This document shows, in pieces, positions 9,101 to 17,600 of a stretch of DNA of 64,000 nt (its first letter is position 1; each line of letters begins with the position of its first letter). The notes below the pieces were generated by a model. The model worked only from the letters and a program-made list of their open reading frames with translations. It was not told the origin of the DNA and ran no database searches. The position numbers and the translations under genes are program-made. This stretch comes from Vulcanimicrobiota bacterium (lineage in GTDB: Bacteria > Vulcanimicrobiota > Vulcanimicrobiia > Vulcanimicrobiales > Vulcanimicrobiaceae), in assembly GCA_003168375.1 (NCBI GenBank), contig PMSI01000001.1, forward strand, positions 558,001-622,000, read 5' to 3'.

Positions 9101-10486
9101 TCAGCTCTTCGGACGCTCGTCCCGCACCCGACGGGATTTGAGGTCGGTGCGCGTGAGCGTGCCGGCCGGGGCGAAGGTGATCTCGGCGCGGATGCCCAGC
9201 TGGCGTTTCAACTGCGCCGTCACGCGCTCGCGCAGCGCGGTCTCGTCGCACGGCGCGGCGAGTTCGGCGCGGACGGTGAGCTCGTCGAGCGCTTTCGGGC
9301 GCGACACGACGATCTCGAACTCGGTGCCGATCTCGGCGAAGCCGTGCAGCACGTCTTCGATTGCGCTCGGGTAGATGTTCTCGCCGCGCACGACCAGCAT
9401 GTCGTCGATGCGGCCGATGATCCCGCGCGGGAAGCGCGGGTACGTGCGTCCGCACGGGCACGGGTCGTTCGTCCACTCGGCCTGATCGCCCGAGACGAGC
9501 CGGATCATCGGCTGTCCGCGGCGCATGAGCTGCGTGTAGACCGGGGTCCCCGTCGCGCCGTACGGCAGCGGGCGCATCGTCGCCGGATCGAGCAGCTCGG
9601 TGTAGACGATGTCTTGCCAGAGGTGCATCCCGGTGCGATGCTCGCACTCGGTGATGTTCATCCAGGGCGTCACTTCGCCCATGCTTCCGCTGTCGATGCA
9701 GATCGCGCCGAACGTCTCCTCGATCAGCCGCTTCGTGCCGGGGATCCCGGCGCCCGGCTCGCCCGAGAAGAACATGATGCGCAGCCCGAAGTCGCGCGGA
9801 TCGATCCCTTCGGCGCGCGCCGTCTCCGCGATCCGCAGCGCGTACGAGGGTGTCCCGTAGAACGCGGTCGGCTTCATCTGCCGCATCCACGAGACGGCTT
9901 GCAGCGTCATCCCCGGAACGCCGGCGCCGAACGGGAACGCCGCGGCGCCGAGCCGTTCGATCCCCGCCAGCGCCCCCCAGGAGCCTACGTAGAGCGAGAA
10001 GATCGAGCCGACGAACACCGTGTCGCTTGGCCGCAGGCCGAAGCTCCACATGATGCGCGCGTGCGACTCCGCGATGCGGTCGTAGTCGTCGCGGCTCCAG
10101 GCGAACGCCGTCGGCCGGCCGCTCGTCCCGGAGGTCCCGTGAATGTGAAAGATATCGCTCGGATCGATGCAGAGATACGAACCGAACGGCGGGTGCGCGG
10201 CTTGATCGGCGCGCAGATCGGCCTTGGCGATCGTCGGAACGCGCGAGAAATCGTCGAGCGACTTCACGTCGCCGGGCTCCAGCCCCGCGGCCTGCCAGCG
10301 CGTGCGGTAGAACGGTGCGCGGTCGTAGGCCCAGCGCATCACGCGCTGGATCTTGGCGAGGATGACGCTCGCGCGCTCGTCCTCCGACATCGTTTCGAGC
10401 GTCGCGTCCCAGTACGGAACATCGCTGGGCGGCCGGTACGCGGGATCGTACGCCGGCGGCCAAAGAGCCTCGGCGGCGTGGATCAT
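9101..10486 (-). CDS. hcl: Acyl-CoA ligase, PaaK family; probable 2-hydroxyisobutyryl-CoA ligase
   Basis: 461 aa. Phenylacetate-CoA-ligase-type adenylate-forming enzyme: [13 protein letters not shown] is the ATP-loop, [19 protein letters not shown] and [11 protein letters not shown] follow in the core, and the hinge region has [17 protein letters not shown] before the mobile C-terminal domain. Last gene of hcmA-meaH-hcmB-hcl, with its ATG overlapping the hcmB stop. Known 2-hydroxyisobutyryl-CoA ligases of the tert-butyl ether degraders belong to this family and sit in the same operon, so the natural role is ATP-dependent activation of 2-hydroxyisobutyrate. The family is certain; the substrate is inferred from operon context. 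Confidence 0.85.
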
Positions 10487-10932
10487 CGCGCCGGCGCACC
10501 CTGTGCTGAGCCTGTCGAAGCACGGCGCGTGCGGTCTCGGCCGGTCTCCGCGACGATGCGCTCGATCCCGTCGATCAGGTCCTGCGTCGACGCCTCGGCG
10601 TTGAAGATCTCGCGGACCCCGATCGCCTTGAGCTTGGGGATGTCGTCCTCTTGGATCACGCCGCCGCCGACGACGGCGATGTCGTCGACCTCGCGTTCGG
10701 AGAGCATCGTCATGATCTTTGGAAAGATCGTCATGTGCGCGCCCGACAGGATGCTCACGCCGACGACGTCGACGTCCTCCTGGATCGCCGCGTTCACGAT
10801 CATCTCGGGAGTCTGATGCAGGCCGGTGTAGACGACCTCCATCCCCGCGTCGCGCAGTGCGCGCGCGACGATCTTCGCACCGCGGTCGTGGCCGTCGAGG
10901 CCGGGCTTCGCGACGAGCACCTTAATGGGCAT
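10483..10932 (-). CDS. hcmB: B12-binding small subunit of 2-hydroxyisobutyryl-CoA mutase
   Basis: 149 aa. Cobalamin-binding subunit of the split acyl-CoA mutase. The base-off B12 motif DxHxxG is present as D13-G-H15-D-R-G18, and GGGVIQEDD follows as expected. Start ATG 10932 has an ideal GGAGGA seven nt upstream. The gene starts inside the 3' end of meaH and overlaps hcl by 4 nt. The last 17 or so residues ([13 protein letters not shown]) are encoded by a dispersed repeat and are not part of the B12 fold. Confidence 0.9.
10501..10525 (+). repeat. Dispersed short repeat, copy 1
   Basis: Contains GCTGAGCCTGTCGAAGC, flanked by the inverted pentamers GTGCT and AGCAC, so it can form a small hairpin. 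The core matches copies at 24423-24445 and 29850-29872. It lies inside the end of hcmB and is translated there. Confidence 0.75.
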
Positions 10933-11845
10933 GAGCGGGTCCTCCAAGCATGAGCGCTAACGCGTCGATCGCGTCGTTGCGGGTGAGTTCGTGATCGCGC
11001 AGACGGTCGAGGACCGCGGCTGCATCGTGTGTGTCGAGGGTCGCGAGCGCGCGGCGCACCGCCTCGTCGCGGGCGCGGCGCACGACCTCGAAGCGGACGG
11101 CGCGCACGGCGTTGGTATCGTCGCCGTTGCGCTTTGCGTTGAGCACTTCGAGCAGCTCCGACACGCCGGTGCCGTCCTGCGCGATCGTCTGCAGAACCGG
11201 GATATCGCGCTTGCCCTCGCGCACCATGTGCTTGAGGTCGACGGCGCTGGCGTTCGCGCCGGGCCGGTCGGCCATGTTGACGACGAAGATGTCGGCGATC
11301 TCGGTGAGGCCGGCTTTAATCGCCTGCACGCCGTCGCCGAGTGCGGGGACGGTCACCACCACGATCACGTCGGCGACCGCGACGATCTCGAGCTCGACCT
11401 GACCGACGCCGACCGTCTCCACGATGACGATGTCGAAACCGGCCTCGTCGGCGAGCCGCACGGCGTCACGCGTCGCCGGGGCGAGCCCGCCACCGGCCGA
11501 GCGCGACGCCATGCTGCGGATGAACACGCCGGGGTCACCGGCATGGCGCTGCATGCGTACGCGGTCGCCGAGAACCGCGCCGTGGGTGAACGGCGACGAC
11601 GGGTCGACGGCGATCACCGCGACCGTTGCATCGTCGGCGCGGAACCCTTCGATCAGCCGGTCGACGAGCGTCGACTTCCCAGCGCCGGGCGGCCCCGTGA
11701 TCCCGATGACGTCCGCTCGCCGGTCGCCGCGCACCGGGCCGCCGAACGCGGCGAACTGCGCGAGCGCGCCGCGATAATCGGTGATCCCGTTCTCCACCGC
11801 CGAGATGGCGCGCGCCAAATCGCGGTGGACGCGGTGCCCGATCAA
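10922..11845 (-). CDS. meaH: MeaB/ArgK-type GTPase chaperone of the acyl-CoA mutase
   Basis: 307 aa. G3E GTPase that guards B12 loading and reactivation of acyl-CoA mutases. Walker [10 protein letters not shown], then [30 protein letters not shown] and NMADRPGA are all diagnostic. It lies between the two mutase subunit genes, overlapping hcmA by 4 nt and hcmB by 11 nt, which fits a dedicated chaperone for this mutase. In the related tert-butyl ether pathway operons the equivalent gene is called meaH. Confidence 0.92.
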
Positions 11846-13518
11846 AAGACCGGCGTCTCCACGTACGTCCCGAACACCGGGCGCAGTGCTTTGATGATCT
11901 CACCGCCGGTGGCCCGCGCCTTCACGGCCGCGATCGTCGCCGGCATGATGTTCTCGTCGGTCTTGGCGACGCGCACGATCTCGTCGAGCGCCGCCTGGAC
12001 CGCGGCGGCGTCGCGCGTCTCCTTGGTCTTGCGCAGCCGCGCCAGCTGACGGCCCGAGGCCGCCTCGTCGACGTGGTGCAGTTCGACGTGCGGGTTCGCG
12101 CTCTCGTCGCGGTACTTCGTCACCGTGACGATGTGCCGCTCGCCTGCTTCCTTGCGGCGATGCAGATCGTACGCCGCGTCGGCCAATTCCATCTGGAAGA
12201 AGTTGTCCTCGATGCACTTGATCGTTCCGCCGCGTTTGTCGACCTCGGCGAAGTAGTCGAAGCAGCCCTTCTCGATGTCGGTGGTGAGCCGCTCGATCGC
12301 GTACGAGCCGCCGAGCGGGTCGATCGTCCCGATCACGCCGACCTCGTCCGCGAGAATCTGCTGCGTGCGCAGCGCGATCTTCATCGCGGGCTCGCTCGGG
12401 ATCGAGAGCGCCTCGTCGTAGCCGTTGGTGTGGAGCGACTGCGCGCCGCCGCAGACCGCGGCCAGCGCTTCGATCGCGGTGCGGGCGATGTTGTTCAGCG
12501 GCTCGCGCGCCGTGCACGAGACGCCGGCGGTCTGGCAGTGGAAGCGCAACCGCATCGATTCCGGTTTCTTCGCGCCGAAGCGATCCTTCATCACGCGCCC
12601 CCAGACGCGGCGCGCGGCGCGGAACTTCGCGACCTCTTCCAAGAAGTCGATCTGTGAGACGAAGAAGAACGAGAGACGCGGCGCGAAGTCGTCGACGTCG
12701 ATCCCGGCCTTCACGACCTCCTCGACGTACGCGATCCCGGCCGCGAGCGTGAAGGCGACTTCCTGGATAGCGGTGCTGCCGGCTTCGCGCGCATGGTAGC
12801 CGCTGACGTTGACGGGGTTGTAGCGCGGCAGATGTTCCGCCGAGTAGGTGATCGAGTCGCGCACGAGCCGCATCGCGGGGCGCGGCGGATACACCCACTC
12901 CTTCTGCGCGATGTACTCCTTGATGATGTCGTTCTGAATCGTCCCCGAGAGCTTCTTGCGGTCGAAACCGCGCTCTTCGGCGGTGACCAAGTACATCGCG
13001 AGCAGGATCCACGCCGACGGGTTGATCGTCATCGAGACGCTGATCTTCTCGAGATCGATCCCCGCGTACAGGTCGAGCATGTCGTCGACGCTGTCGATCG
13101 CGACGCCCTCGCGTCCGACCTCGCCCTCGCTGCGCTCGTCGTCCGAGTCGTAGCCCATCAGCGTCGGCATGTCGAAGTCGGTCGAGATCCCCGTCTGGCC
13201 TTGGGCGATCAGAAAGCGGAAGCGCTCGTTGGTGTCGTCGGCGGTTCCGAAGCCGGCGATCTGGCGCATCGTCCACGGCTGGGCGCGGTACATCGTCGGA
13301 TACGGTCCGCGCGTGTACGGGAACTGCCCCGGGAAGCCGATGTCGCGCGTGAAGTCCACGTCCTCGACGTGCGCGGGGGTGTAGACCCGCTCGAGCGCGG
13401 CACCGCCCTGGGTGCGGAACACCTCGCGCGATTCGGGGCGGCGCTCGGTGAACGGCAGGAGCGTCCGCTGCTCCCACTCGCGTAGCTCGTCGGCGATGGT
13501 CTTCTCGGTCGTCTGCAC
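11842..13518 (-). CDS. hcmA: Large subunit of 2-hydroxyisobutyryl-CoA mutase
   Basis: 558 aa, GTG start with GGAGG ten nt upstream. B12-dependent mutase TIM-barrel subunit. The substrate-pocket segments read TMRQIAGFGTADDTNERF and QTGISTDFDMPTLMGYDSD. Methylmalonyl-CoA mutase has Tyr and isobutyryl-CoA mutase Phe at the RQxAG position; here it is Ile87. Asp114 occupies the position that is Ala in methylmalonyl-CoA mutase. Ile90/Asp117 is the published signature of 2-hydroxyisobutyryl-CoA mutase, and both residues are offset here by exactly 3. The reaction would turn 2-hydroxyisobutyryl-CoA into 3-hydroxybutyryl-CoA. First gene of the operon; GntR-type operators lie upstream. Confidence 0.9.
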   Translation of the reverse strand: MQTTEKTIADELREWEQRTLLPFTERRPESREVFRTQGGAALERVYTPAHVEDVDFTRDIGFPGQFPYTRGPYPTMYRAQPWTMRQIAGFGTADDTNERFRFLIAQGQTGISTDFDMPTLMGYDSDDERSEGEVGREGVAIDSVDDMLDLYAGIDLEKISVSMTINPSAWILLAMYLVTAEERGFDRKKLSGTIQNDIIKEYIAQKEWVYPPRPAMRLVRDSITYSAEHLPRYNPVNVSGYHAREAGSTAIQEVAFTLAAGIAYVEEVVKAGIDVDDFAPRLSFFFVSQIDFLEEVAKFRAARRVWGRVMKDRFGAKKPESMRLRFHCQTAGVSCTAREPLNNIARTAIEALAAVCGGAQSLHTNGYDEALSIPSEPAMKIALRTQQILADEVGVIGTIDPLGGSYAIERLTTDIEKGCFDYFAEVDKRGGTIKCIEDNFFQMELADAAYDLHRRKEAGERHIVTVTKYRDESANPHVELHHVDEAASGRQLARLRKTKETRDAAAVQAALDEIVRVAKTDENIMPATIAAVKARATGGEIIKALRPVFGTYVETPVF

Positions 13519-13540: not shown

Positions 13541-13552
13541 ATTGTATACAAT
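13541..13552. promoter_or_regulatory. Palindromic operator 1, GntR-FCD type
   Basis: Perfect palindrome ATTGTATACAAT in the 81-nt divergent region between hcmA and the gntR gene. TTGTATACAA-like sites are common for FCD-class GntR regulators. It overlaps the predicted hcmA -10 box. Confidence 0.75.
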
Positions 13553-13585: not shown

Positions 13586-13596
13586 GTGTATACAAT
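13586..13596. promoter_or_regulatory. Palindromic operator 2 at the gntR start
   Basis: GTGTATACAAT, a second copy of the operator with one changed end, 45 nt from the first and 3 nt before the gntR ATG at 13600. Its TATACA/TACAAT also fits a -10 box for a leaderless gntR mRNA, so binding would give autorepression. Confidence 0.7.
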
Positions 13597-13599
13597 CTC

Positions 13600-14271
13600 A
13601 TGGCAATGAACCTCGCTCGGAGCACGGAGCCCCGCTCGGAGGGCCTCGTCGACGCCTTACGCGAGGCGATCCTGACCGGGCGGTACGCTCCGGGTACCCG
13701 GTTGGTCCAGGACGATCTCGCCGAGGCGTTCGGGATGAGCCGCATCCCGCTGCGCGAGGCCCTGCGCCGGCTCGAGGGTGAGGGGCTGGTCGTGATCAGC
13801 CCCAACCGGGGAGCGATCGTGCGGCCGCTGGCTCCCAAAGACGTGGTCGACCTCTACGACCTGCGGCTCGCGCTCGAAGCGCTGGCGCTGAGGCGCGCGT
13901 CCGAGCGCTATGCCGACCTGCGCGCGTCGACCAAGACGCGTCACGCCCAGGCGCGCCAGGCGATCGCCGCGCGGAACCTCACCGCGCTGTTCCGGCTCGA
14001 CCGCGACTTCCACGCCGACATCGCCGCCGCGTCCGACAACCCGCACCTGGTCGCGGCGCTCGGCGCGCAGTGGTCGCAGATCATGCGCGTGATGCACGCC
14101 TACTTCCAAGCCGGCGACTATCCGGTCGACACCTGGGACGATCACGAAGCGATCGCCGACGCCGTCGCGCACGGCGAGGCGGATCTCGCCGTCGAGCGGA
14201 TGAGCGCGCACCTGACCGGCAGCCGCGACCGAATCCTCGCGAGCCTGCGCGGGCACGGAGACCGGCCGTGA
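13600..14271 (+). CDS. GntR-family transcriptional regulator, FCD subclass
   Basis: 223 aa. N-terminal winged HTH (LREAILTGRYAPGTRLVQDDLAEAFGMSRIPLREALRRLEGEGLV), C-terminal all-helical FCD ligand domain with the conserved metal-type residues in DLRLALE, FHADIAAAS and DDHEAIADAV. The ATG at 13600 is used; 13606 is an alternative. It is divergent from hcmA and starts its own operon, overlapping the next gene by 4 nt (GTGA). The twin TTGTATACAA-type operators make it the likely local regulator of both operons; its ligand is unknown. Confidence 0.9.
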   Translation: MAMNLARSTEPRSEGLVDALREAILTGRYAPGTRLVQDDLAEAFGMSRIPLREALRRLEGEGLVVISPNRGAIVRPLAPKDVVDLYDLRLALEALALRRASERYADLRASTKTRHAQARQAIAARNLTALFRLDRDFHADIAAASDNPHLVAALGAQWSQIMRVMHAYFQAGDYPVDTWDDHEAIADAVAHGEADLAVERMSAHLTGSRDRILASLRGHGDRP

Positions 14272-15626
14272 ACCTCGCGCGAGCGCTCGCGCGGCGCGAA
14301 GCGAACGGCACGCCGGTCCGCGTCGGCCTGATCGGTGCCGGCAAGTTCGGCACGATGATCCTCTCGCAGTTGCGGCTGATGACCGGCGTGCGGCTGTGCG
14401 TGCTCGCCGATCTCGACGGCGACCGCGCGCGCCGTGCCTTGACGGAGGCCGGCTGGCCCGCCGACGCGTTCGCGCCGGCAGCGAGCGCGGGCGCGGCGAA
14501 CGACGTCGCGCGCAGCGGGCGCGTCGCGCTGGTGGAGAGCGGCGAGCTCGCTACCGGCTGCGAGATCGACGTCCTAATCGAAGCGACGGGTCACGAAGAA
14601 GCCGGCGCGCTGCACGCCTATCGCGCGATCGAGCGCGGGCTGCACGTCGTCATGGTGACCGTCGAGGCCGACGTCGTCGTCGGGCCGTACCTGCAGCGCA
14701 TGGCGCAGCGCAACGGCGTCGTCTACTCGATGGCGTACGGCGACCAGCCGGCGATCATCTGCGAGCTGGTCGACTGGGCGCGCACCTGCGGCTTCGAGGT
14801 CGTCGCCGCCGGCAAAGGGACGAAGTTCGCTCCCCGCTATCGCCGCTCGACGCCGGACACCGCGTTCGAAAACTACGGCTTCACGCCGGAGCAGGTTGCG
14901 ACCGGCGGCTTCAACCCGAAGATGTTCAACTCGTTCCTCGACGGAACGAAGTCGGCGATCGAGATGGTCGCCGTCGCCAATGCGACGGGTCTGGACGTTC
15001 CGCGCGACGGCCTCTCGTTCGCACCGGCGTCGGTGTACGATCTGCCCTCGCTGCTGCGGCCGCGCGAGGACGGCGGTATCCTTCCGCACGCGGGCGTGGT
15101 CGACGTCGTGTCGTGCGTGCGGGACGATGAGAGTTTCGTCGACGACCACTTGCGGTGGGGCGTGTACGTGACGTTCACCTCGGAGAGCGCGTACGCGCGG
15201 CGCTGCTTCGGTGAGTACGGGATCGCGACCGATCCGTCCGGCCGCTTCGCGGCGCTGTGGCGGCCGTATCATCTGATCGGCCTCGAGATCGGCGTCTCGA
15301 TCGCGTCGGCGGCGCTCCGCGGCGAGCCGACCGGGGCGCCGTTCGCCGGACACCGCGCCGAGGTCGTGTGCGCGACGCGGGCGCCGATGCGCGCCGGCGA
15401 GCTGATCGACGGCGAGGGCGGCTATGCGGCCTACGGGACGTGCATGCCGGCCGAACTCGCACGGCAGCTCGACCTGGTTCCGATGGGGCTCGCGCATGGT
15501 CTGCGCCTCACGCGCGACGTCCCCGCCGACCACCCGATCGGCCGGCGCGACGTCGTCTTCGACGACGACTCGTTTCTCTGGCGCCTCCGTCGCGAGCAGG
15601 ACGCGCAGCTCGGCGTTCCGGTCTGA
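14268..15626 (+). CDS. NAD(P)-dependent homoserine-dehydrogenase-like oxidoreductase with SAF domain
   Basis: 452 aa, GTG start overlapping the gntR stop. N-terminal Rossmann segment VRVGLIGAGKFGTMI, then VLIEATGHEEAGA and HVVMVTVEADVVVGP; the C-terminal part (ELIDGEGGYAAYGTC... LTRDVPADHPIGRRDVV) is a SAF-like domain. This architecture matches the predicted homoserine dehydrogenase group COG4091, whose true substrate is unsettled. It is followed by a DJ-1/PfpI protein and an amidase in the same operon. The product name reflects fold only. Confidence 0.75.
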   Translation: MNLARALARREANGTPVRVGLIGAGKFGTMILSQLRLMTGVRLCVLADLDGDRARRALTEAGWPADAFAPAASAGAANDVARSGRVALVESGELATGCEIDVLIEATGHEEAGALHAYRAIERGLHVVMVTVEADVVVGPYLQRMAQRNGVVYSMAYGDQPAIICELVDWARTCGFEVVAAGKGTKFAPRYRRSTPDTAFENYGFTPEQVATGGFNPKMFNSFLDGTKSAIEMVAVANATGLDVPRDGLSFAPASVYDLPSLLRPREDGGILPHAGVVDVVSCVRDDESFVDDHLRWGVYVTFTSESAYARRCFGEYGIATDPSGRFAALWRPYHLIGLEIGVSIASAALRGEPTGAPFAGHRAEVVCATRAPMRAGELIDGEGGYAAYGTCMPAELARQLDLVPMGLAHGLRLTRDVPADHPIGRRDVVFDDDSFLWRLRREQDAQLGVPV

Positions 15627-16330
15627 TGCCCGCTCCACTGGTGCAAGGACTCGATGCGCCCCGCTCGGTCTTCATCCTGGCCTACGACGACTGCGATCAG
15701 CTCGACATCACCGGCCCGTTCGAGATCCTCGGCACGCTCGTGCAGTGGCTCGGGGTCGTACTCGACCTGCGCGTCGTCTCGATCCCGGGCACGACCGAGG
15801 ACGCGAGCGGTCTCGTGCGCTCGGCGAACGGCTTCCGTTTCATGAGCCAACCGTGGGACGGCACGGAACTTCCCGATATCCTGGTCGTCGCCGGCGGCAT
15901 CTTCGTCAAACCCGGCTCGAACGAGCCGGCCGGGATCGGACTGCAGAGCACCAATCCGGCCTTCACGGGCGCGATCGCGAAGCAGTACGCGTCGAAACGG
16001 TTGGTGACGTCGGTGTGTACCGGCGCGTTCGGCCTCGTCGGCGCGCGCATTGCGCGCGGTCATACGATCACCACCCATCCCGGCGTTCTCCAGAAGCTCG
16101 CCGATTTTGCCGCCGGTCTGGGCGAAGAGCTCTCGATCCTCGATCCGGACGCGGGCGCGCGCGTCGTCGACAACGGGGACTTGATCACCTGCGGCGGTGT
16201 GTCGTCCGGGATCGACGAGGCACTGTACCTCGTGCAGAAGTTCTGGCCCGCTCAGCTCGAAGGCGTCCGCGGATGGGTCGACTACCCCTATCAGTTCTCA
16301 TCGAAGATTATCCTCAGCTCAGCGAGGTGA
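15626..16330 (+). CDS. DJ-1/PfpI family protein
   Basis: 234 aa, ATG overlapping the previous stop (TGATG). ThiJ/DJ-1/PfpI flavodoxin-like fold: FILAYDDCDQLDITGPFEIL at the N-terminus and the nucleophile elbow VTSVCTGAFGLVGARI with Cys at about residue 131, then GHTITTHPGVLQ. Members include isocyanide hydratases, glyoxalase-like enzymes and amidase regulators. The acetamidase next door may mean a role in amide or isonitrile-type metabolism, but this is only context. Confidence 0.8.
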   Translation: MPAPLVQGLDAPRSVFILAYDDCDQLDITGPFEILGTLVQWLGVVLDLRVVSIPGTTEDASGLVRSANGFRFMSQPWDGTELPDILVVAGGIFVKPGSNEPAGIGLQSTNPAFTGAIAKQYASKRLVTSVCTGAFGLVGARIARGHTITTHPGVLQKLADFAAGLGEELSILDPDAGARVVDNGDLITCGGVSSGIDEALYLVQKFWPAQLEGVRGWVDYPYQFSSKIILSSAR

Positions 16331-16337
16331 ACGCACG

Positions 16338-17600
16338 ATGTTCGGATGCAGCGACCACTGGCTCGGAAAACGGTTCTCCCACGCGCTCACGGGGTTCCTC
16401 AGTGAAGAGAAGCGGCGGCGCGAACTGCGCGCGCACGACGCGGTCGACGCGGACGCGGTCGAGGAGCGGTACGAAGGCTGGCGCGTCTCGCGCGCCTCCG
16501 CGCTGAAGATCGGCGGCGCCGCCGCAGCGTTCGCGCTCGCCGACACCGTGCTGCCGGATCCCGCCGCGGCGGCACCGACGACCGCGAACGCGACGAGCGA
16601 CTGGACCTCGACGACGAAGCCGGTCCCACTCGGCCGTACGTACACGGTACTCTCGAACAACGACACGGTCACGCAGGGACTGTTCGATCCGGCGAAAGCA
16701 CCGCTCGTCACCGTCGATTCGGGCGACGTCGTGGTCTACGAGAACACCTGGACGCACTTCCTGAACAAGCTCCAGCCGGGCGTCCCGGCCGACGAGCTGG
16801 CCAACATGCGCCGGGCCTCGCCCGGCCGCGGCGTGCACAGCATCATCGGGCCGATCGCGGTGAAGGGCGCAATGCCGGGCGACGTCGTGCAGCTACGGTT
16901 CCTGCGGCTCGAGACGGTCGGCTTCGGCGCGAACTTCCATAACCCGGGCGCAACGATCAAGACCGGGACGCTGCCTGACGAGTTTCCCGACGGTCACGTG
17001 CACTATTTCAAACTCGACCCGGCGCAACGGTACGTAACCTTCAACGATCGCATCCGGCTGGAGCTGAAGCCGTTCCAAGGCACGATCGGGCTCGCGCCCG
17101 AGGGCGACAAAGCGGTGAGCTCGGTGGCGCCCGGCAAGCACGCGGGGAACATCGACCTCAAGGACTTGACGGCGGGCTCCTCGCTGTTCGTCCCGGTCAT
17201 CCATCCGGGCGCACTGATCTTCACCGGCGACTCGCATGCGCTGCAGGGCGACGGCGAAGTGAACCTCACGGCGATCGAGACCGCGATGAAAGAAGTGCGG
17301 ATGCAGGTGATCCTGCACAAGAACGTGGCGTGGAAATGGCCGTTCGCAGAGACCGCGACGCACTGGATCGCCCTCGGGCTCGACCCGTCGGTGAACGACG
17401 CGTTGCGCATCGCGCTGCGCAACACGATCGACTTCCTGAGCACGAAGGCGGGTCTGAGCCGCGACGACGCCTACGGGCTCGCCTCGATCGGCGTCGACTT
17501 CCGTATCACGCAGATGGTCGACGTGCAGAACGGCGTCCACGCGCTGATCCCGAAGTCGATCTTCGCCGCTGATTTCCGGAAGTCGATCGCGCTCGTCTAA
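16338..17600 (+). CDS. Tat-exported acetamidase/formamidase family protein
   Basis: 420 aa from ATG 16338. FmdA/AmdA family: GDVVVYENTWTHFLN, SIIGPIAVKGAMPGDVVQLRF, FHPGALIFTGDSHALQGDGEV-like block and PFAETATHWIALGLD. Such enzymes hydrolyse short amides to acid and ammonia. Unlike classical cytosolic FmdA, about 50 residues precede a segment VSRASALKIGGAAAAFALA...AAA that looks like a twin-arginine-type or Sec signal placed after a long n-region, so the enzyme may be periplasmic. Last gene of the gntR operon. Confidence 0.83.
   Translation: MFGCSDHWLGKRFSHALTGFLSEEKRRRELRAHDAVDADAVEERYEGWRVSRASALKIGGAAAAFALADTVLPDPAAAAPTTANATSDWTSTTKPVPLGRTYTVLSNNDTVTQGLFDPAKAPLVTVDSGDVVVYENTWTHFLNKLQPGVPADELANMRRASPGRGVHSIIGPIAVKGAMPGDVVQLRFLRLETVGFGANFHNPGATIKTGTLPDEFPDGHVHYFKLDPAQRYVTFNDRIRLELKPFQGTIGLAPEGDKAVSSVAPGKHAGNIDLKDLTAGSSLFVPVIHPGALIFTGDSHALQGDGEVNLTAIETAMKEVRMQVILHKNVAWKWPFAETATHWIALGLDPSVNDALRIALRNTIDFLSTKAGLSRDDAYGLASIGVDFRITQMVDVQNGVHALIPKSIFAADFRKSIALV

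Follow-up and report, generated by a model that had tools for sequence, protein, structure and literature searches.

A fixed 2-hydroxyisobutyryl-CoA mutase core and a divergent GntR operon with exchangeable cargo share a control region in a genus of Vulcanimicrobiota

We analysed a 64,000-nucleotide stretch (the window, G000:C4:558001-622000) of the 4,430,012-base genome of a Vulcanimicrobiota bacterium. It holds two divergent operons with a shared control region: a mutase/ligase operon and a GntR operon whose further genes, here called cargo, are swapped among relatives. The GntR operon lies on the plus strand and is composed of four genes at 13600-17600, as the original prediction had it; the positions of the open reading frames (ORFs) and the Pfam family scores confirm this. 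The first gene, gntR (13600..14271), encodes an FCD-type GntR regulator, in which both the GntR domain (PF00392, 66.5 bits) and the FCD domain (PF07729, 82.3 bits) were detected. It is followed by the genes for DLO, an NAD(P) oxidoreductase resembling DXR-II (14268..15626; PF21135, 195 bits), for a DJ-1/PfpI protein resembling the isonitrile hydratase InhA (15626..16330; PF01965, 43.1 bits), and for an amidase of the FmdA/AmdA family (16338..17600; PF03069, 109.3 bits against a cut-off of 27; about 115 bits with the acetamidases 2f4l and 5ubu). The Pfam families above cut-off are GntR and FCD, DRL_cat and NAD_binding_3, DJ-1_PfpI, and FmdA_AmdA. All four genes had been described as overlapping. 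This holds for gntR and DLO (4 nt) and for DLO and pfpI (1 nt), whereas the amidase gene is merely close, behind a gap of 7 nt. The mutase/ligase operon lies on the minus strand. It starts with hcmA (11842..13518), the gene for the large subunit of 2-hydroxyisobutyryl-CoA mutase (HCM), and continues with meaH, a meaB-type gene for the G-protein chaperone of the mutase (10922..11845; PF03308, 235.9 bits; TIGR00750 above cut-off), hcmB for the B12-binding small subunit (10483..10947; PF02310, 86.7 bits; TIGR00640 above cut-off), and hcl for 2-hydroxyisobutyric acid-CoA ligase (HCL; 9101..10486). The overlaps at the three junctions are 4, 26, and 4 nt, respectively.

The control region contains two operator-like sites. 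Operator 1, TTGTATACAA, is located at 13542..13551 ahead of hcmA and has no other exact copy in the genome, where 0.24 copies are expected from the base composition of the window and the reversed pattern, used as a control, occurs three times. The genome-wide search was for exact copies, not for mismatched sites, and found no further operator. Operator 2 (13586..13595) matches at nine of the ten positions, lies 44 bp from operator 1, and ends 4 bp before the ATG of gntR; given this position, GntR probably also controls its own gene. We then inspected 11 genomes of the genus, 10 of which have hcmA (that of G128 is cut by a contig end). A perfect TTGTATACAA site is found 29-37 bp ahead of hcmA in all ten. 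The second site, with 8 to 10 of 10 matches, is exactly 44 bp farther in each of the eight members having a divergent gntR, and is absent at that position from the two members without one (G122 and G123). Hence, the control region shared by the divergent operons is real: the predicted operator in common with hcmA is supported by the unique site before hcmA together with the second site beside gntR.

The closest solved relative of HcmA is 2-hydroxyisobutyryl-CoA mutase (4r3u, 739 bits), compared with 468 bits for methylmalonyl-CoA mutase. Its motif RQIAGFG...STDFDM carries an Ile/Asp pair at the substrate positions, which we take to be I90 and D117 of the HCM literature. Nine more distant matched mutases have Phe/Ala or Tyr/Ala in place of Ile/Asp, and the motif search returned nothing for four loci (L020, L030, L031, and L192). 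The best match of the ligase is 2-hydroxyisobutyryl-CoA synthetase (6hdw, 565 bits), followed by phenylacetate-CoA ligase with 232 bits. As hcl, hcmB, and meaH are all within the operon of hcmA, the divergent operon is, judged from its sequence, a complete 2-hydroxyisobutyryl-CoA mutase/ligase operon, and the predicted 2-hydroxyisobutyrate operon next to the four genes is borne out by the matches with 4r3u and 6hdw. According to PMC7176365, which is cited here from excerpts throughout, a GntR gene usually accompanies the mutase cluster. The regulator gene belongs with the mutase core, as previously published. An Actinomycetospora-type 2-hydroxyacyl-CoA lyase gene is present in or beside the mutase-ligase clusters of G126, G119, G029, and Methylibium PM1 (L047:12652-14364, L048:13048-14739, L064:11672-13354, and L176:11604-13304), so that these loci unite lyase and mutase genes. 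In the genus members G119 and G126 it is within the mutase operon, and the G126 lyase matches 7pt1 at 698 bits. By eye, two transposase-like ORFs with nearly the same start are seen beside the ligase gene of the G119 mutase operon (L048:16341-19397).

The cargo of each genus member was read next to hcmA, up to the PP2C or selB genes or to the contig end. The genome of the window (G000) carries DLO, PfpI, and amidase; G125 carries DLO and PfpI; G119, DLO and amidase; G124, an unassigned ORF, DLO, and amidase; G126, DLO and a dehydrogenase of the 3HCDH type (closest solved relatives, 4om8 and lambda-crystallin). In G127, DLO extends the locus as far as the contig end. The amidase is the sole cargo of G120 and G128; G123, which lacks gntR at this place, carries a diverged PfpI, and G122 has no cargo. 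Altogether, DLO is present in 6 of the 11 genomes with every copy beside hcmA, and the amidase adjoins hcmA in five of the ten members that have hcmA. In G125, a decayed amidase fragment is located on another contig, away from the mutase locus (L183:6732-7285). The ratio of nonsynonymous to synonymous substitution rates is 0.19-0.25 for DLO, 0.10-0.28 for the amidase, and 0.33 for PfpI, which indicates that the cargo genes are under purifying selection as proteins. Conservation of the eight genes as one block in related genomes, suggested earlier as a check, was not found. The locus instead consists of a fixed core and a swapped cargo, with DLO, PfpI, and amidase exchanged among genus members.

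The structure model of DLO has a predicted local distance difference test score (pLDDT) of 94.8. It aligns with Brucella DXR-II (3upy) over 429 residues with a Z score of 50.7 and 33% identity; the next structural match is canonical DXR with a Z score of 19. The model thus predicts a DXR-II fold over the full length of the protein. DXR-II makes methylerythritol phosphate. By hand count on the alignment, Lys193, Thr229, and His250 of the Brucella enzyme are replaced by Thr185, Ser229, and Ser250 in DLO, while Lys191 and Arg320 are retained. Carretero-Paulet et al. (2013; PMC3847144, cited from excerpts) name the important residues, describe Thr229 as absolutely conserved in DXR-II, and split true DXR-II from the uncharacterised groups DLO1 and DLO2; the Ser at position 229 agrees with their DLO2 residues. 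With the key residues replaced, the dehydrogenase has a DXR-II scaffold but is not a DXR-II, and belongs to the uncharacterised DLO side of the family. The original prediction of a dehydrogenase without an assigned substrate still holds, with the family now known. As for its SAF label, homologues in plasmid records are named SAF, and SAF is reported for most DXR-II in the excerpts of PMC3847144, but Pfam calls no SAF domain in the window protein. Judged on titles and abstract starts, PMC3847144 is the only paper found that treats the DLO groups. As to the possible chemistry, DXR enzymes interconvert aldehyde and alcohol beside a carbon with hydroxyl and methyl substituents. Both 2-methyl-1,2-propanediol and 2-hydroxyisobutyraldehyde contain such a carbon. 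The two compounds are known precursors of 2-hydroxyisobutyrate, and in the Actinomycetospora ligase cluster the dehydrogenases MpdB and MpdC make 2-hydroxyisobutyrate from 2-methyl-1,2-propanediol (PMC7176365). By analogy, DLO may fill an MpdB/MpdC-type place here.

The amidase keeps the stretches GN(I/V)D and GDSHA(L/V)Q(G/A)DGE, which occur in all eight aligned sequences. It had been predicted to be exported by the twin-arginine translocation (Tat) pathway, and we reject this. Inspection by eye, with no signal-peptide predictor run, found SRASALK in place of a twin-arginine motif. The hydrophobic stretch occurs in three of the eight aligned amidases (SRASALK, SRAGALR, and SRAAALK) and is absent from the other five, two of which are from other genera. 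The protein is therefore probably cytoplasmic. Its structure model has a mean pLDDT of 48.7 and was not used. The window's genome holds a second, distant gene of the amidase family that is 34% identical. It also encodes a nitrile hydratase alpha subunit (246 bits) with the motif VCTLCSC, ca. 126 kb from hcmA and with beta-like frames just upstream (by eye); the family is found in none of the 14 control genomes. An HMG-CoA reductase-like gene (by eye) lies ca. 3.6 kb from the nitrile hydratase genes (L196:13721-14845); canonical Dxr is encoded in this genome as well. The presence of nitrile hydratase makes a route from nitrile via amide to acid possible, and the excerpts of PMC2847961 describe such a route by nitrile hydratase and amidase from acetone cyanohydrin to 2-hydroxyisobutyrate, with a link to linamarin. 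The original idea that an amide feeds the mutase operon thus gains some support from the nitrile hydratase but loses its exported amidase. PfpI matches InhA (3non) with 47 bits, and the segments QLDITGP and SVCTGAF align with the active-site Asp and Cys, which we take to be Asp17 and Cys101.

Co-occurrence of these genes was examined over 149 genomes, in groups set by hand from the match listings. The mutase group has 23 genomes (identity of about 58% or more, the cut gene of G128 included), the hydratase group 27 of the 32 with a match (five weak ones omitted), the amidase group 9 of 16 (weak ones and the G125 fragment omitted), and the DLO group 9 of 11 (short weak pieces in G087 and G108 omitted). 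At the genome level, where kinship and genome size are ignored, the p values are 8e-7 for mutase-DLO, 5e-6 for mutase-hydratase, 0.005 for mutase-amidase, and 9e-5 for amidase-hydratase. At the genus level, they are 0.06, 0.009, 0.50, and 0.03, respectively, and those for DLO-amidase and DLO-hydratase are 0.007 and 0.008. Across the phylum, the hydratase is present in 6 of the 11 genera with the mutase versus 9 of the 59 without it (Fisher p 0.009, one of six tests without kinship correction). In one of these six genera the two genes sit in different genomes. Outside the window's genus, the p value for mutase-hydratase is 0.014.

We propose that the two operons are one GntR-controlled locus, in which a fixed core is combined with exchangeable feeder enzymes preparing 2-hydroxyisobutyrate, and assign this reading a probability of about 0.5. 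The observed basis consists of the gene families, the sites and their conservation, the purifying selection, and the cargo swapping. In the core, HCL would activate 2-hydroxyisobutyrate to its CoA ester, which HcmA and HcmB, aided by MeaH, would convert into 3-hydroxybutyryl-CoA. GntR would bind, presumably as a repressor, to the two TTGTATACAA-type sites between the divergent promoters, and both operons would be switched on with the GntR ligand, which is probably 2-hydroxyisobutyrate or its CoA ester. The genes behind gntR would supply the acid from precursors. Specifically, the amidase may hydrolyse a short alpha-hydroxy amide in the cytoplasm, and DLO may have as its substrate a tertiary alpha-hydroxy alcohol or aldehyde; groups of this kind are oxidised and reduced by its DXR relatives. 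We give PfpI no firm role. As the regulator stays constant with the core while relatives swap the cargo, the locus offers a short list of candidate feeder enzymes. It also suggests a possible role for a DLO-type protein; in the excerpted 2013 survey (PMC3847144), no function is assigned to this group. The feeder genes may also hint at the natural origin of 2-hydroxyisobutyrate. The mutase pathway was first studied in degraders of fuel oxygenates, its genes also occur at pristine sites, and the natural source of the acid is not yet identified according to PMC7176365.

Several observations weigh against this proposal. Within the genus, the cargo changes quickly, and the only amidase copy of this type in G125 is the decayed one elsewhere. 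The adjacency of DLO and hcmA is inherited by descent, which makes its six occurrences non-independent. Beyond the genus, an operator-like site before hcmA is missing from seven of the eight HCM loci read in other genera of the phylum, and the eighth, in G077, has one with 8 of 10 matches; the arrangement is therefore a feature of the genus. G077 carries hcmA on contig C1 and DLO on C3, where DLO faces a gene for a DUF1537-type sugar-acid kinase (SBD_N/NBD_C in Pfam; L049:9923-11230) with an LtnD-type dehydrogenase nearby. The DLO of G076 faces a gene that resembles this kinase, away from hcmA. G090 has DLO and the amidase on separate contigs and no mutase at the HCM level; a PhyH-type dioxygenase gene directly precedes its DLO (L054:922-1710). 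Relatives with the two operons apart had been named at the outset as evidence against the link, and such separation occurs in one sister genus (G077), while all six DLO genomes of the genus keep DLO beside hcmA. The best 80 of 399 DLO loci in named genomes include 76 outside the relatives already listed, and HCM genes are found in the fetched flanks, often short, of only one of the 76. Finally, none of the three cargo enzymes is encoded in the stretches read of seven HCM clusters in other bacteria.

The one outside locus with HCM genes belongs to a Zoogloeaceae metagenome-assembled genome (MAG). There, DLO, hcmB, and hcl run to one contig edge, and a second contig has the remainder of hcl along with meaB and hcmA at its edge; we infer one cluster split by assembly. 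In a tree of 88 DLO proteins, from which L107 was omitted for a stop codon, the Zoogloeaceae DLO is far from the window clade (branch 99/97). This placement suggests a second, separate association of DLO with HCM; old loss elsewhere is the alternative. Of the 369 genomes in the class of this MAG, five have the mutase, the MAG included. In the four other class genomes and in three plasmids, gntR-type, hcmB, hcl, meaB, and hcmA genes were read, with DLO, PfpI, and amidase absent from the stretches covered; the plasmid neighbourhoods read are three of 428 records with a mutase match, and the GntR gene of the Agrobacterium plasmid is known from annotation. Beyond this GntR gene, the Agrobacterium deltaense plasmid, which comes from a plant, encodes a family 3 glycoside hydrolase and an MFS transporter (L178:1227-4801). 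Near relatives of the window DLO, L065 and L066, are in Candidatus Eremiobacterota records, and our literature search found no paper linking Eremiobacterota with the term 2-hydroxyisobutyr-.

The feeder reading has a tentative special case, in which nitrile hydratase would make 2-hydroxyisobutyramide from acetone cyanohydrin, the cytoplasmic amidase would free the acid, and the mutase operon would consume it. The window genome's own nitrile hydratase, from a family missing in the controls, the genus-level association of mutase and hydratase, the amidase beside hcmA in half of the members with hcmA, and the route with its linamarin link in PMC2847961 all favour this possibility. However, the hydratase genes are remote from hcmA in a genome without a second exact operator, 9 of the 11 genus members have nitrile hydratase regardless of the amidase (p 0.45), mutase and amidase do not co-occur significantly across genera, and DLO and PfpI are left unexplained. 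A broader form extends the feeder reading to two parallel supplies. 2-Hydroxyisobutyrate would come partly from plant cyanogenic glucosides such as linamarin via nitrile hydratase and the GntR-controlled amidase, and DLO would feed the core starting with 2-methyl-1,2-propanediol or a related ketol, using chemistry of the type that DXR performs on 2-C-methylerythritol phosphate. The glycoside hydrolase gene near the Agrobacterium mutase cluster fits the linamarin half, and we consider the combination as a whole rather unlikely.

It is doubtful, although conceivable, that the cargo is an independent module for hydroxy acids or sugar acids, having only the regulator and the place in common with the mutase operon. 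Many DLO relatives do sit in such catabolism, near genes for GntR regulators, sugar or TRAP transporters, aldolases, and hydroxy-acid dehydrogenases. Outside the phylum, the families listed among downstream neighbours are GntR/FCD (14 of 70, many from related actinobacteria), DHDPS-type aldolase (5), and LtnD/HIBADH-type dehydrogenase (3), and among upstream neighbours PhyH (7 of 69); in these counts, genes were picked by a codon-usage script, neighbours shorter than 95 residues were dropped, and the first 25 families were listed. Four of the five plasmid regions read place DLO with sugar transport, class II aldolase, or sugar kinase genes, the fifth with none of these, and the kinases beside DLO in G077 and, by resemblance, G076 point the same way. 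Against such a module, all six genus copies of DLO are at the mutase locus, next to an operator that is unique in the window's genome, and the Zoogloeaceae MAG repeats the DLO-mutase link. Use of isonitrile or formamide is very unlikely. Here PfpI would hydrate an isonitrile and the amidase would cleave the formamide, in keeping with the two catalytic residues common to PfpI and InhA and with the formamidases in the amidase family. Among genus members, however, the window's own genome is the only one to combine PfpI and amidase at the locus, and the NCBIfam equivalog model for formamidase FmdA gives the amidase a score of 71 against a cut-off of 500. Least credible of all is that DLO serves as an alternative DXR of isoprenoid synthesis placed here by chance. 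The full-length DXR-II fold would suit it, but the residues replaced include the absolutely conserved Thr229, the genome encodes a canonical Dxr above the family cut-off, and four DLO1/DLO2 proteins tested earlier gave no complementation (PMC3847144). We therefore reject an isoprenoid role for DLO.

The feeder reading can be set beside known systems. PfpI has the active-site Asp and Cys in common with InhA of the DJ-1/PfpI family, with an overall similarity that is weak. The amidase matches the family of 2f4l, 5ubu, and 2wkn but is no formamidase by the NCBIfam cut-off. The alignments with solved relatives begin at residue 105 or beyond, which leaves the N-terminal part peculiar to the window amidase. 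Among DXR-II, DLO1, and DLO2 (PMC3847144), DLO resembles DXR-II in its fold and over its full length and differs from it in the key residues. The lyase-HCL cluster of Actinomycetospora chiangmaiensis (PMC7176365) has the core ligase and the mpdB and mpdC dehydrogenase genes feeding 2-hydroxyisobutyrate, whereas the window operon is without an Actinomycetospora-type lyase and its dehydrogenase is DXR-II-like rather than MpdB or MpdC. The clusters of Aquincola tertiaricarbonis L108 and Methylibium petroleiphilum PM1 differ from the window in gene order, and in that of PM1 none of the three cargo genes was found within 9 kb of the mutase gene; both have the same four genes, hcmA, hcmB, hcl, and meaH, together with a nearby GntR gene.

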